DNA of 64,000 nucleotides from Nannochloris sp. 'desiccata' (taxonomy: Eukaryota > Chlorophyta > Trebouxiophyceae > Chlorellales > Chlorellaceae): positions 372,001-436,000 of the forward strand of contig JAGTXX020000012.1 of assembly GCA_019044685.2 (NCBI GenBank), written 5' to 3'. Position 1 is the first letter of the stretch. Every line of letters starts with the position of its first letter. The notes below the pieces were generated by a model, which saw only the letters and a program-made list of their open reading frames with translations, had not been told where the DNA came from and made no database searches. Shown here one piece after another: positions 46,442 through 54,492 of this stretch. The translations under genes and the position numbers were made by a program.

Positions 46442-49400
46442 ATGATGGCAGGTTGCCACGAGCGGACCCTTTGCGCCTTGGCGATTATTCTTGGTTTTGT
46501 AATGCCTCACGCCATGGCGGCAACGTGCGAAGCAGGTAAGAGCAACCTCATTAATTTACAGTCTTTGAATTATATACGAATAGTAGAGAACTCTAAGCTG
46601 TTCTCTTAGAACTTTTTGCCAAATTTGATCCACATGCCATTAACGAATGGCTGATCAGTATGACAAAATCATGGAATTGAAGCCTCAATTCTATCGGTAA
46701 TTGATAATTTGCGCCTTGAATGAAATCATCGTGTTCTGATTTATTGCTATTCAACCCATTGTAGGTTCTCTTGACCTTGATTTGGTCTCTGCCATTGGCA
46801 CTGGCGCCGCCACTCACCCATTTGCCAAGTGCTTCAACTCAATGACAGTCAGCGTTTCTTCTGGCTGCACCATAACGCTAACTGCCAAAGGACAGAGGAG
46901 CTATATCCCTGCTCTCTGGTCAGCGGACGATACCTATAATCAGGTCAAAGAGTGCCCCACCAGTTCCTCATTGGCCTTTGCTGATCCGACTGCCGCCACC
47001 GCCACCACCGGATTGGCATCTCTCCTGGCCACTTCAATCTACGCTGAAGGCGTGACTGCCTCTGTTACTGCTTCCACGGGTGAGATTACTATAGTGTCCA
47101 CCTACCTCTCTAACGAGGCTACCTTGAAATACCGCTCCACTGGCACTACCGGCGCTGCAGTAAGTGTTTTTGCAAATATTTTTTTCAGTGTGCAGCTTCT
47201 GCTTTAAAATTCGTTTTTGCCCACCTCTTACCAAGTCTATTTGACACGTATATTATTGTTTTCAACCCTCTCTCTTTACTTCATGATCTATACAGACCGG
47301 CATTTTTAATATCGTCGGCGCTCCTAGCTGCGACACTGGCGCCGAGTGCGCTGCTACTGACACTGGCTGCGGACCAGGTCTCTATTCGGTGCTCATTCAA
47401 GGACAGTCTACATACATTTGTGCGGTCTGCGCTTCTGGTAGCTACTCTGCTTCTGGTGCTACGATCTGCACAAAGTGCATTGCGGGCACCACGCTCTCTT
47501 CAGTTGGTGCCACTTCCAACACCTGCTCTGCATGCGCTGCTGGAACGTTTGCTGCTCTTGGCTCCTCAGATTGCCGCCCTTGTGCACCTGGAACGTGAGT
47601 TGGGTATAAAATCAAAAATAGATCTGCTTTCCTTGCTAAATACTTGAAACTTTATTCCGCGCTCGCTCCATCGCTCTTACTTTGGTTCTCCTTCTCTCTT
47701 CTTTCTATGTCTACAGGTACCAAGATTCCCCTTCTAGCTCAGAGTGCGTTGTGTGCCCTACCCCATGGTCCTCTTATACTTACGGTGCCACTCAGTGCGT
47801 TAAATGCACCAATGGAAGACCTGCTGCCTGCACCGGAGTAGCTTGTTCCTCTGATATCACTGCTGGAAGTGGCGGTTCCTTCGTTGCCACCGTGGCAAAC
47901 GATAATACCTGGACTACTGCATCTAGCTGGCCTCTTGCATATGTATATCCTGCTCTCCTCGGAACCTGCTCCCCAGCGAATACTATCCTCTCTTTTAAAG
48001 TGACAGCTACCTGCACCATGGAGATTCGTGCCTTGGCCCAGACCGCTACAACTGCCAACGGACTCATGTGCTCTGATCCCAGCAACATTGCTTCTAGCGT
48101 CACGGCTCACTATGTTGGTACTAATACAATAATGACTCTTCTCCCTGATATTGAAACCAAGGGGAACATTTTGAAAATTGTTAAGAAAGTTGCCATCACC
48201 GTCACTATGACCGTTGCTGCTGCTAGTCGCTACCCTATTGCAACCACTGCAACCGTCACTGGTGATCTCACCGTTAATGGCGGTACCCTTGTTGGTACAG
48301 ATGTTTATGCTACGTGTCCTGCTGGTACTTACTTTACTGGAACCACGGACGCAGACTTGAGCTGCCCGGCCTGCGAGCCTGGCTTTTATTGCCCTGCCGA
48401 TTCTACTTCCAGTACTTTACCTACCGAGTGCGCTGTCGGCACTTATAGTAGTATTTTGGGACAATCCAGCTGCGACAGCTGCCCTGATAGTACATACGCC
48501 CCAAGTGAAGGTTCATCTCAATGCTTAACCTGCGCTTCTCCAGACGTTGTTGGCAGCTCTGGCGCCACTTGTGTAAGCACCGAGTGCGAGGCAGACAAGA
48601 CATTCAACTATGACACTGTTGTTTGTGACTGTGCACCTGGATATTATGCCTCTGGAGACGGTGCTTGCACTATCTGCCCTGCCAATACCTACTCTTCTGG
48701 AGGGCCTACAGATACTGTTGTTGCCTCGTGCACTGCTTGTCCGACCGGCCAAGTTTCAGATGCTGGTTCCTCATCGTGCAGCTATTGCCCCGATGGCCAA
48801 GTCAAGATTGGCGAGGTGTGTGGCCGTTGTTCAGCTGGCCAAGAAGCTCGTATTGTTAGTCCTAGAACATATGCAACATGCGAAGCGTGTCCTTTTGGCT
48901 ATTACAACCCCGCTGGCACCGATGGCGGCCAGTTTGATATGTGCCAGCGTTGTGAAGATGGCAAGAAAACGGATGCGGGAAAGACGCTGTGCATTAACTG
49001 CGCACCGGGCACGTTCTCAATTTGGAACACCTTAAGTGATCGCGTCCCTGCGAATGACCCCACTTTATGTGCAGCGTGCTCTGCTGGAGGATACTCTGCA
49101 AGCGGCGCCAGTAAGTGCATTCTTTGCGCCGGTGGGGCTCAGGCTACTCCTAATAGAGATTCGTGCGTTCGATGTACTGCGGGTACTTATCGTATCTTTA
49201 GCAGTGCTGAAGGTTGTCAGGCCTGTCCTGCTGGTACTGCGGCCGGGGCTGGCTCTGATACCTGCCTTAACTGCCGCCCTGGCCAATTTTCTGCCGCAGG
49301 TGCAGGTACCTGCTCTAGTTGCGCAGTGAACACCTACTCCACCGATCCTGGCTCCACAACGTGCATGGAGTGCCGGCCTGGTACCAGCACTGTTGGAGAG

Positions 49401-50006
49401 AGTGGTGCTAGCCAGTGTGCTGCCTGTCCTGTTGGAACTTTCTTCAACGCCACTTCCAAGGCGTGTGACGAGTGTGCAATGGGCTATTACCAAAACCGAG
49501 AAGGCCAAATCACTTGTAAGACATGCCCCATTGGCACGTTTAGCGATGCAGAAGGGTCTTCAACATGCGAGCTGTGCCCTCCTGGAAAGTACCAATCTGT
49601 GGCTGGCTCTCAGACCTGCCGTACCTGCCCCGGTGGGACCTTCTCTTTTGGCGGCAAGGGTTCTTGCTCTATCTGCCCCAGGGGTAGATACTCTGCTCCT
49701 GGGTCTACGACTTGTACCACTTGTGCTGCTGGATACTATGCCAACAAGCTTATATCTAGATCTTGTACTGCCTGCCCTGCTGGCTCCAGATGCCCTGGTG
49801 CTGGCAACACCGATCCCACACTCTGTGCTGCTGGCTCCTTCCAATCGAAGCCTGCCCAGACCATCTGCATCCCTTGCCCCAGGAAGACTTTCTCTGATAA
49901 AGCTGGAGCTTCCCGGTGTGCACCATGCCCTACTGCCAATACAGTGGGTTCTAAAGTCTGCAACGCCCGTCGTAGGATGCTTTTTGGCCGTTTCGGCATA
50001 CTATAA
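46442..50006 (+). CDS. Gene C: secreted Cys-rich GCC-repeat protein
   Basis: Four exons, 46442-46535, 46765-47159, 47296-47594 and 47717-50006, have the same phases (1, 0, 2) as genes A and B and give 1,025 residues. The signal peptide contains LAIILGFVMPHAMAA. The shared N-terminal domain has HPFAKCFNSMTVSVSSGC and SIYAEGVTAS. The long exon begins YQDSPSSSECVVCPTPW, has the non-Cys domain (CTMEIRALAQTATTANG) and a long CxxCPxGxY module array, and ends in ARRRMLFGRFGIL. The part at 48585-49708 is almost identical in DNA to gene D. Secretion is supported by the signal peptide and many paired Cys; the actual role is unknown. Confidence 0.87.
48585..49708 (+). repeat. 1,124-bp tract shared with gene D (copy in C)
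   Basis: It matches 53056-54179 at a constant offset of 4,471 without gaps. I found two differences, T/G at 49514 and C/T at 49572, both synonymous. Confidence 0.95.
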
Positions 50007-51235
50007 CAGATACTATAACAATATTTGATTAGAATCTTCTCTCTCTCTCTTATGTATAGTTATCAAGAAGTTGACAGCTTCTTTGATCTACCATGATCTT
50101 TGTTTAAAATATACGTGATGTTCCATCGCCTTCCTTGTCCATTTCGCTGACGATGGTTGTTTATCATCAATTCACTTTCTATCCGGCGATTGTTCAATAT
50201 TAGAGGAGCTTCTCTTTTGCTAAATGAATAATCTTAGTTTTAGTTTCTAAATAAGTTACCTTCCTTCTTACAGTTGAACCTCATTGCAATAATTTTTACC
50301 TCGTGACCATGGCTATGAGTTAATACACCTTTTCCCCTTTCCTTATTTTTTGTAAAGCAGAGCACATTGGGGAAAAATAACATAAGGAGAAGCATCAATC
50401 TTTATTTTCCAAGCAATTTTCTTCAAGATTATCTTCAATAGCTCGGCATCTACTAGTTGTTGTACTAGGCTGTGCGTTGGCAGCAACAGCAGCAGCTGGT
50501 GGAGGCGCTGCAAGTGGACGGCTGGCTGGGACGGCGGTGACAGACAATTCAAACACACAAGGTAAAACAATGTTAGGCTAATCATCAGTTTTCCTAAGGT
50601 ACCTTGAGGGACCGTGAGCAGCCACTGGCGTAACACTAGGCCACTCCTACCAAGAGATAAGTAAGAGATTAACTTACTCCAGCATGTATGTAAAAAAATC
50701 ATCAAGAGTGAGTTTTATGTGGCCGAGACGGTGGGCGTCAAGAATTCAAACATCCATTACATAATTGTTTGAGAACTGGCAGCATGCAGACGTACATGGT
50801 ACTTTTACGTATTAATTTGAAATAATTGCTAGGCATAGCAGCGCTTCAAAATTTAACAGAATTCCTGATACTCGCCCAACCAAGTGACATCTGAGGATTG
50901 CACTTGAATTGTTTATGCGCTCAACTCGGCTGGGTGTTCTTTCGGCATGCCAACTTTTGGGAGGATTTCAATCACTTGATGTGCCTGTTTATTAAGTTCA
51001 AAGTAGCTTGTTTGTTAGCTCTTTGTATGTCAAAATGGCCCCTCGTCCCAGCACGCAAAAATCAAAGTCGTCAAAAGACCAGTCGGCCAATTTTGCGTGC
51101 CGATTTTTCTCGACGCATTAATAAGTAAATTCAACATTCATTCCCTAGTATGCATTTCAATACAATGCTGTTAGAATGCAATGGAATAGCGTCATGAAGC
51201 GCAAGGCTACCTGATCTGTCGGATCGCATCTTGCT
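50007..51235. other. Intergenic region between genes C and D
   Basis: About 1.2 kb. On the minus strand near 50400-50750 there are gene-like pieces: a reading frame ending LEENCLENKD, and a possible exon ending FFTYMLE before a GTAAGT. I could not join them into one model. A 10-bp inverted repeat GCACGCAAAA/TTTTGCGTGC lies at 51051-51060 and 51091-51100. Nothing else is supported. Confidence 0.35.
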
Positions 51236-54200
51236 ATGGGTGCCGAGCAGGATAGGCTCCATTTTGGAGCCATACTCCGAGTCTTGGCGCTACTTACAAT
51301 CTTACCAACTGCACAAGCTGCTGAACCAGTGACGAGGCAGGTCAATAATACTTTAGTATGGAATATGGCCTCGTATGCTGTTCTATCGACGTCAAGCATC
51401 GTTGAGGACAGGTTTCCGTTTGTGGGTTTAAGATTCTTGGGACCAAATGTTCGAATATTTGATGATGTCAGCAGCCCTGCTTTTAAATATACATATTCTG
51501 GTAAGCAGAGAGATGTGGAGTCACACTTTTTTTTCACAGAGGCAACCAAAAACATCCTTTTTGGAAGAGCAGTCAAATTTCGAATTCAAATTCTCTCCCA
51601 TTGTTCTGCAGTTGTTTCTCCATCTCCCTCGTTAACCGATAAGCCTTGGTATAAGTTTGCAATAAGTAACGCATCCATCCCTCAGTCTAGCGGCGGCAGT
51701 ATATATATGGGAAGCTTACTCTTGTTGAGAGGAGATCTCCCCGACACGGACACCGTTCAAACATATAATCTAACGCTGAGAGCTGCTGAAAAAGTTAATC
51801 TGACAAGCTACACAGATATTCTCATCATGGCTCAAGTACCACCACCGGTACGTACGTCGAGGTATACTCTCAGCGTATCTGATCTTACAGCTCCTTTGGA
51901 AACGCAACAAGCAAGGATTGCAAATAAGTGGTTCGTTGATAGGTTCCCCCCTCAAGAGTTTTACAATAATGGAACTGTCTTAGGCAAAAAGGACGTAAGT
52001 ATGCAAAAGAGTAAGATATTTATATATTTGTATATATATTCAGCTAAACTCTTCCTCTCTATGTGGTGCAGGTCTTGGGTATCGAGGTTGGGTCATCTGG
52101 CCAGCCGTCTGCTCGGCAGCAGACTTTTGGCGACACAACCTTGGAAGCAGAAGAATACAATTTTCAAGGAAGACGTCACCAGGTAGCTGAATTCATCCCT
52201 AATACAACCTCTACTACATTCACTGCGAGTCTATACATCCCAGAGGACTGGATCGATGCCTATCCAGGGTCTTCACTGTGCAGTTCTCAAAATCCAAGCA
52301 ACCCCGATGCATGTGCACGAAAAACAGAGTTTGCAGTAGAATTTGCCGCGTCGGATGGTTCTACAGTGACACCTACAATTAATATCAGGGCTGGATTCGA
52401 CAATAGAGACTCTGCTAAAGTGGATGTAGGCCCAGCGCCATTTCTGTACTTGGCATTCGACGGTCCAATTGTGGGGAACGCTGAGTGGAATTCGACTGTG
52501 CCAGGGAAAACAGGCAAGTATGCTGCATATTTCCCGTTAAAGAATCCTCTTTATGGTTGGGAGACAACAGAAACATACGTAAGGGATCAGATAGGGCAAA
52601 ATATGCTACGCAGGAATGATTGGAATCAATTTTCTTTTACTGTGCGGAGATACCCTGGAGATCCTGTAGCATCCTTTAGTCGATTATGCGCAGAAACATT
52701 TAACATCGAGTGGATGGTGAATGGTATCAAGCATTTTCTTGGCCCCAACACGACTATAGCGGCGTCTTTCTGCACTCGGTACCCTTCCGCCCTCGGAGGC
52801 GGGTACACAACTTTAAACACTAATTTTGCGAGAGACATTATTGTTTCAGCATACAATCCACCGCAGACGAATTCGACTGATGTAAAAGGTTATAAGGCTA
52901 TGTGGTCGGATCTGAACATTTATAGAGGTACGACAGATATTACTGCCTTGTTGGACACTCCACCACCTAGTCCACCGCCTCCTCCTCCTTTGCCACCACC
53001 GAGTCCTCCTCCCTCACCTCCTCCTAGCCCGCCCCCACCGTCACCTCCACCGGACTGCGAGGCAGACAAGACATTCAACTATGACACTGTTGTTTGTGAC
53101 TGTGCACCTGGATATTATGCCTCTGGAGACGGTGCTTGCACTATCTGCCCTGCCAATACCTACTCTTCTGGAGGGCCTACAGATACTGTTGTTGCCTCGT
53201 GCACTGCTTGTCCGACCGGCCAAGTTTCAGATGCTGGTTCCTCATCGTGCAGCTATTGCCCCGATGGCCAAGTCAAGATTGGCGAGGTGTGTGGCCGTTG
53301 TTCAGCTGGCCAAGAAGCTCGTATTGTTAGTCCTAGAACATATGCAACATGCGAAGCGTGTCCTTTTGGCTATTACAACCCCGCTGGCACCGATGGCGGC
53401 CAGTTTGATATGTGCCAGCGTTGTGAAGATGGCAAGAAAACGGATGCGGGAAAGACGCTGTGCATTAACTGCGCACCGGGCACGTTCTCAATTTGGAACA
53501 CCTTAAGTGATCGCGTCCCTGCGAATGACCCCACTTTATGTGCAGCGTGCTCTGCTGGAGGATACTCTGCAAGCGGCGCCAGTAAGTGCATTCTTTGCGC
53601 CGGTGGGGCTCAGGCTACTCCTAATAGAGATTCGTGCGTTCGATGTACTGCGGGTACTTATCGTATCTTTAGCAGTGCTGAAGGTTGTCAGGCCTGTCCT
53701 GCTGGTACTGCGGCCGGGGCTGGCTCTGATACCTGCCTTAACTGCCGCCCTGGCCAATTTTCTGCCGCAGGTGCAGGTACCTGCTCTAGTTGCGCAGTGA
53801 ACACCTACTCCACCGATCCTGGCTCCACAACGTGCATGGAGTGCCGGCCTGGTACCAGCACTGTTGGAGAGAGTGGTGCTAGCCAGTGTGCTGCCTGTCC
53901 TGTTGGAACTTTCTTCAACGCCACTTCCAAGGCGTGTGACGAGTGTGCAATGGGCTATTACCAAAACCGAGAAGGCCAAATCACGTGTAAGACATGCCCC
54001 ATTGGCACGTTTAGCGATGCAGAAGGGTCTTCAACATGCGAGTTGTGCCCTCCTGGAAAGTACCAATCTGTGGCTGGCTCTCAGACCTGCCGTACCTGCC
54101 CCGGTGGGACCTTCTCTTTTGGCGGCAAGGGTTCTTGCTCTATCTGCCCCAGGGGTAGATACTCTGCTCCTGGGTCTACTGCTTGCAGTAGTTGTACCTC

Positions 54201-54492
54201 TGGATACTATGCAAATAAATTTGGTTCTAGGTCTTGTACTGCCTGCCCTGCTGGCTCCAAATGCCTTGGTGCTGGTCGCACTCGTCCCACGCTCTGCCGT
54301 AAAGGCTTCTTTCAATCTAAGCCTGGCCAGATCACTTGCCGTGTCTGCCCCAAGAAGACTTATGTTGCCAGGGTTGGAGCTACGAAGTGTATACACTGCG
54401 CTAGTGCCCGCACTGTCGGCACTTCCGATTGTCCTAGCCCAACCCCTAGCCGTCGCAGGATGCTTCTCAAGCATCTCTTAAAACTTAATTAA
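51236..54492 (+). CDS. Gene D: chimeric secreted protein, novel N-terminal region + Pro linker + GCC repeats
   Basis: Two exons, 51236-51994 and 52072-54492, join in phase 0 and give 1,059 residues. A signal peptide (ILRVLALLTILPTAQA) is followed by about 560 residues I do not recognise. These look like two beta-rich, N-glycosylated domains (NNTLVWNM, SNASIPQSS, AEWNSTVPG) and have no resemblance to the N-termini of A, B or C. A linker of SPPPP/SPPP units (about 52960-53053) then leads directly into the GCC module array. The first 374 residues of the array are the same as in gene C. The last 100 are a diverged paralogous version, ending in SRRRMLLKHLLKLN. The Pro-Ser linker is typical of green algal wall glycoproteins. 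A lectin or matrix role is a guess only. Confidence 0.85.
53056..54179 (+). repeat. 1,124-bp tract shared with gene C (copy in D)
   Basis: Begins at the first Cys codon after the Pro linker and ends inside the module array, where the two genes become clearly different again. Confidence 0.95.

Follow-up and report, generated by a model that had tools for sequence, protein, structure and literature searches.

Why should two neighboring genes share a stretch of coding sequence that is almost letter for letter the same, when what lies on either side of it is dissimilar? The question is raised by genes C and D in the window, the whole 64,000-nucleotide stretch of Nannochloris DNA analyzed here, which has a GC content of 45.8% and contains no N. 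The UTEX 2526 assembly is put at 21.6 Mb with 45.0% GC in a part of PMC12636532, where Nannochloris is also named among the diploid assemblies. The features of the locus, together with the paralogs A and B, are collected in the table. The exons of gene C (~46764-47180, ~47296-47595, and ~47718-50006) were placed with tblastn of the protein record P0001 (Ndes2526A_g06790, 1005 aa), using only rows above 95% identity and with approximate edges. This record, the top-ranking protein hit for C, contains the open reading frame (ORF) of C exactly, the comparison running from residue 41 of the ORF onward. Pfam found Ephrin_rec_like repeats in C and also in the Cys-rich half of D; a weak match to VSP probably reflects the Cys-rich repeats. 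Judging by their hydrophobic N-termini, the Cys-rich and Pro-rich proteins of the cluster are probably secreted. The contig carrying the window (C12) is 1,630,598 bp long, compared to 1,630,067 bp for the contig of record P0001, and contig C2, which carries a gene related to D, is 804,739 bp long, compared to 803,818 bp for that of record P0071. As these sizes do not match and the records are labelled Ndes2526A and Ndes2526B, phased assemblies usable for a comparison of C and D may exist.

Table. Features of the C-D locus and its paralogs (window coordinates).
Feature	Position	Strand	Evidence or remark
Paralog B, ORF in last exon, record P0003	32030..34204	-	
Paralog A, ORF in last exon, record P0002	36937..38994	-	
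Gene C, Cys-rich protein with Ephrin_rec_like repeats, three exons	46764..50006	+	tblastn of P0001, Pfam
Near-identical tract, gene C copy (374 codons + 2 bases, Cys-rich domain)	48585..49708	+	2/1124 differ
Third tract, C end similar to B end (B on opposite strand)	49671..49995	+	0/2000 shuffles reach it
D's own 5' framework (upstream region plus the exon 1 part that resembles a signal peptide)	50816..51309	+	147/488 differ from C2 gene
Gene D, C2-type N-terminal half, Pro linker, Cys-rich domain	51236..54492	+	modelled exons
D segment similar to the C2 gene	51310..51973	+	36/664 differ
Diverged patch, mainly 5' part of intron 2	51974..52041	+	20/68 differ
Second tract, shared by D and the C2 gene (another contig)	52042..52867	+	20/826 differ; exon 3 part dS 0.053
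D's own Pro-rich linker	52868..53055	+	68/185 differ from C2 gene; final codon GAC as in A and B, GAG in C
Near-identical tract, gene D copy (recipient if the weak lean in direction is right)	53056..54179	+	identity, silent divergence, trees
D's own C-terminal end, homologous to C but distant	54180..54492	+	dS 0.66, dN 0.35

When the two genes were compared with positions shifted by a constant 4471 bp, the C and D copies of the tract matched over 1,124 bp with no gaps and two mismatches (C/D: T/G at 49514 and C/T at 49572), both of which are silent (ACT/ACG for Thr and CTG/TTG for Leu). The sequence-only reading of this DNA, which had reported two gap-free 1,124-bp tracts with two synonymous differences, was exact on this point. 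The tract was then used as a DNA query against the 21.55-Mb, 18-contig assembly, and five matches were found among the best candidates, which were the ones scored: C and D themselves, and three fragments from A and B with 68-74% identity. At the protein level, again with scoring of the best candidates, the Cys-rich domain gave eight matches. Those in C, D, A, and B were near full-domain and all lay in the window, while the other four were weak and partial, three of them elsewhere in the region of the window that holds A and C, and the fourth on contig C7. In a GENECONV-like permutation of A to D, the kind of test that the sequence-only reading had proposed, the longest C-D run comprised 417 consecutive variable sites and was reached by 0 of 2000 shuffles, indicating that the likeness is not due to chance.

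To the left of the tract, each of the three full rows of the comparison had 19-25 of 100 bases in common between C and D, and the row containing the edge had 44, in agreement with the claim that the left flanks are unrelated. The edge is the first base of a TGC codon (Cys), with one Asp codon (GAC) between it and the Pro run of D, and the earlier placement of the edge on the first Cys codon after the Pro linker was thus accurate. The codon preceding this Cys is GAC in A, B, and D and GAG in C; this one codon hints that D's own Cys-rich domain may have begun there before the exchange. To the right of the tract, the ungapped rows matched at 81, 67, and 45 of 100 bases, the first of which includes the last 9 bases of the tract and amounts to 72/91 outside it. 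Across the whole right end, 32% of the positions in aligned codons differed (about 68% identity), with a dS of 0.66 and a dN of 0.35, as expected from right flanks described as homologous yet clearly diverged. The right flank of D was about equally far from C as from A (dS 0.61, dN 0.31) and B (dS 0.46, dN 0.33). The first full codon past the right edge is GCT in D, as in A and B and unlike C, and the further codons of D are either unlike all three or common to all. In the self-comparison of the window there was no C-D match outside 48578-49890, and the sequences after the stop codons of C and D did not match. The even divergence along the copied unit that a simple tandem duplication gives was absent from both the row and the sliding-window identities.

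The silent sites separated the tract from its flank most clearly. Within the tract, C and D differed at 2 of about 288 silent sites (~0.7%), compared to about 34 of 77 beyond its right edge (Fisher p = 4e-24 from rounded counts); the computed dS of 0.010 for the tract takes in one codon that straddles the edge. As the silent sites are homogenised too, selection at the protein level alone does not explain the identity of C and D, and purifying selection was ruled out as its cause. Phylogenetic trees of the two parts were in conflict. The tract tree grouped C with D, with log-likelihood gaps of 136.6 and 137.4, and the right-flank tree grouped B with C. For the right flank, C+D was rejected by the AU, KH, and SH tests (p-AU = 0.024, and 0.013 once the gappy C-terminal end was removed), and c-ELW, applied to the full right flank, still included the C+D tree in its set. 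A tract beside a diverged homologous flank, homogenised silent sites, and conflicting trees, three marks of ectopic conversion, were found here. The silent sites and the trees support the view, already held by the sequence-only reading, that the tract arose by a recent conversion or ectopic copy.

Gene D is itself composite. Its exons were modelled on P0071, the protein of the related gene on contig C2 (the C2 gene), as 51236-51500, 51612-51994, and 52072-54492, giving an open frame of 1022 aa. Positions 50816-53051 aligned with the C2 gene (L018, 3095-5356) at 87% over 2275 columns, introns included, and the two genes have in common the upstream region, the N-terminal domain, and two introns at the same places. 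The C2 gene is a proline-rich protein gene whose listed ORFs end in a long Pro/Lys-rich tail, and a Cys-rich domain was found neither in these ORFs nor in those of a distant relative on contig C3. This diverged relative (37%) of the N-terminal half of D (L020, 399-3738) continues into a long Pro-rich tail. The C2-type protein P0071 gave no Pfam match even at E up to 5, and AlphaFold, run with a three-sequence alignment on the exon-3 ORF of D up to the linker, returned a mean pLDDT of 35.6. Judged by these alignments, D is a chimera joined at the Pro linker. Because of this build, homology between C and D starts only at about the first Cys, and the left edge of the tract is therefore the end of C-D homology. 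A retrocopy was ruled out, as the two introns are kept between D and the C2 gene; the C-D tract, lying within one exon, is by itself uninformative on intron loss. Protein searches, with about 8,000 candidates scored in each, returned records for A, B, C, and the C2-type gene, and the D protein was absent among the matches listed (70, 6, and the best 120 of 764). Either D is unannotated, or it is annotated with a length beyond the search range, or it is missing in other assemblies.

The likeness of D to the C2 gene is also uneven. Segmentation into five segments gave a divergence of 2.4-5.4% over most of the N-terminal half, the low-divergence segments spanning intron 1 and the greater part of the N-terminal domain, and of 29-37% in three places: the upstream and signal-peptide part, the beginning of intron 2, and the Pro-rich linker. 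For the best segment of high identity (51563-52867), 0 of 1000 shuffles did as well. Here, selection keeping the N-terminal domain alike is a more serious rival than for C and D, as the diverged parts (upstream region, signal-peptide-like start, intron, and linker) are those expected to be less constrained. However, silent differences were fewer in exon 3 (10 of ~197) than in exon 1 (16 of ~65, p = 3e-5), and the introns exceeded the silent sites of exon 3 (17/77 in intron 2, p = 7e-5; 15/111 in intron 1, p = 0.015); exons 2 and 3 showed no difference (p = 0.20). On account of the exon 1 and exon 3 silent sites and the introns, we prefer conversion over selection, and it is likely that the N-terminal half of D was overwritten by an earlier conversion with the C2 gene.

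A third tract joins C and B. To the right of the C-D tract, C and B were 87% identical, compared to 64% in the rest of the Cys-rich domain, and their dS was 0.195 there and 0.711 within the C-D tract; this is probably an older conversion between inverted genes. The tolerant scores of the other pairs were reached by 18/2000 (A-C), 5/2000 (A-D), and 39/2000 (B-D) shuffles, values that are uncorrected for six pairs, and no tract is claimed from them. With segments of unusual likeness in both D-C2 and B-C, exchange in the family looks recurrent.

Given the observed tract, flanks, chimera, and conflicting trees, we consider it highly probable that D is an old chimera of C2-type and Cys-rich parts in which at least 1,124 bp were later overwritten between C and D by ectopic gene conversion. 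A C2-type 5' half, comprising the upstream region, signal-peptide-like start, N-terminal domain, and Pro linker, would have been joined to a Cys-rich domain from the A/B/C family. An earlier conversion with the C2 gene probably overwrote the N-terminal domain of D, and, much later than the fusion, a stretch of no less than 1,124 bp in the Cys-rich domain of D would have been swapped for the counterpart in C, or the reverse. The route may have been strand invasion between same-oriented domains about 4.5 kb apart, followed by copying and return without crossover; the tract would then end on the left where C-D homology is lost, and its right end would fall within the homologous domain. D looks like a framework of its own with two overwritten domains of different ages. 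If rates are equal, the C-D event is the younger, since the silent differences are 2/288 for C-D and 10/197 for D-C2 in exon 3 (p = 0.005). The direction from C to D is weakly favoured by the sequences: the ratio of amino-acid differences to A over those to B was 0.849 in the tract, 0.848 in the upstream part of C, and 1.03 in D's own end, with overlapping intervals.

What speaks against conversion is the low identity of the partners, about 68% over the right end and 72/91 beside the edge. According to a part of PMC3924818, conversion occurs mainly above 80% identity and at a low rate below it, and the mean tract lengths quoted from experiments mostly fall at 200-500 bp (more than 1 kb in one data set), which makes 1,124 bp long for a single event. 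Earlier exchanges that kept the copies similar, or several overlapping events, would ease both the low identity and the long tract. Among the alternatives, it is unlikely that the tract was newly inserted by copying, a broken older D being repaired on a C template with homology on the right side only and with end-joining or microhomology at the Pro linker. The left edge at the end of homology and a short imperfect match (CACCG) directly to the left of it fit such a fusion. However, the GAC codon to the left of the tract agrees with A and B, as though the Cys module of D started there, although this is one codon, and the right end of D is that of an old family member, so that D most likely already had the whole domain.

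An assembly artefact, through collapse, misjoining, or over-polishing of a repeat or through mixing of haplotypes, would draw on the reported diploidy of the genome and on the lack of a D record among the matches listed, where A, B, C, and the C2-type gene each have one, and polishing could hide a few true differences. We consider it very unlikely, as both copies lie in distinct flanks on a single 1.63-Mb contig, in a window free of N, and the ORF of C (less its first 40 residues) is exactly contained in P0001, which possibly comes from data of the same strain. Moreover, the upstream region, linker, and 3' end of D are about 30-37% off the C2 gene or C; D is therefore no plain join of the two, and divergence of this size would not be expected to vanish by polishing. 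C and D are adjacent and in the same orientation, which would suit a tandem duplication of the entire domain in recent times, if one copy later had its right end replaced or evolves fast there. This is the least credible of the alternatives, with odds that we regard as negligible: the right flank is high in both silent and replacement divergence, the edge is abrupt, the trees place the flank elsewhere, and the C-D match in the self-comparison is confined to 48578-49890, with different sequences after the stop codons. Duplication of the whole domain as such was ruled out by the abrupt edge, the diverged right flank, and the tree conflict. The earlier argument that a simple duplication does not give a near-identical core with dissimilar flanks holds, given the uneven divergence, the abrupt edge, and the right-flank tree. 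Ectopic conversion into an existing chimera is thus the reading that we retain. It could be extended to a standing scheme in which the probably secreted Cys- and Pro-rich proteins of this alga swap whole mature domains by conversion, even across contigs, with upstream regions, signal peptides, and linkers spared and D as a landing place for several donors, an extension that we consider improbable.

Conversion itself is a known process, and the two-donor pattern in D is a tidy example of it. The locus offers a clean natural instance, in a diploid alga with a streamlined genome, of conversion among paralogs that are strongly diverged, and a single gene there apparently carries tracts that differ in age and stem from two donors, which lie on different contigs. 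Gene trees for such protein families need to be built segment by segment, and the D locus can be used to test how diverged templates still convert each other. Titles and abstract beginnings of the papers listed on conversion in green algae contained no treatment of this Cys-rich gene family.

Chimeric genes formed by domain shuffling occur in gene families. D resembles them in that an N-terminal half of C2 type meets a Cys-rich domain at a Pro-rich linker and the introns are retained, but the tract of near-identity arose long after the fusion and is therefore no marker of the fusion event. Ectopic conversion can act between homologous or non-homologous chromosomes, as a part of PMC3924832 describes. 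In the Drosophila Amylase and Hsp70 genes treated in that part, as in C and D, a coding stretch is homogenised and the flanks evolve independently, whereas D seemingly received its patches one domain at a time and from two separate donors. The partners here are also only about 63-71% identical outside the patches, below the usual range given in the cited part of PMC3924818. The introduction of PMC12636532, a paper on the related diploid alga Auxenochlorella, describes how gene conversion causes short interstitial losses of heterozygosity in diploid cells; the same repair machinery is likely at work, but on alleles in the case described there and on paralogs here.
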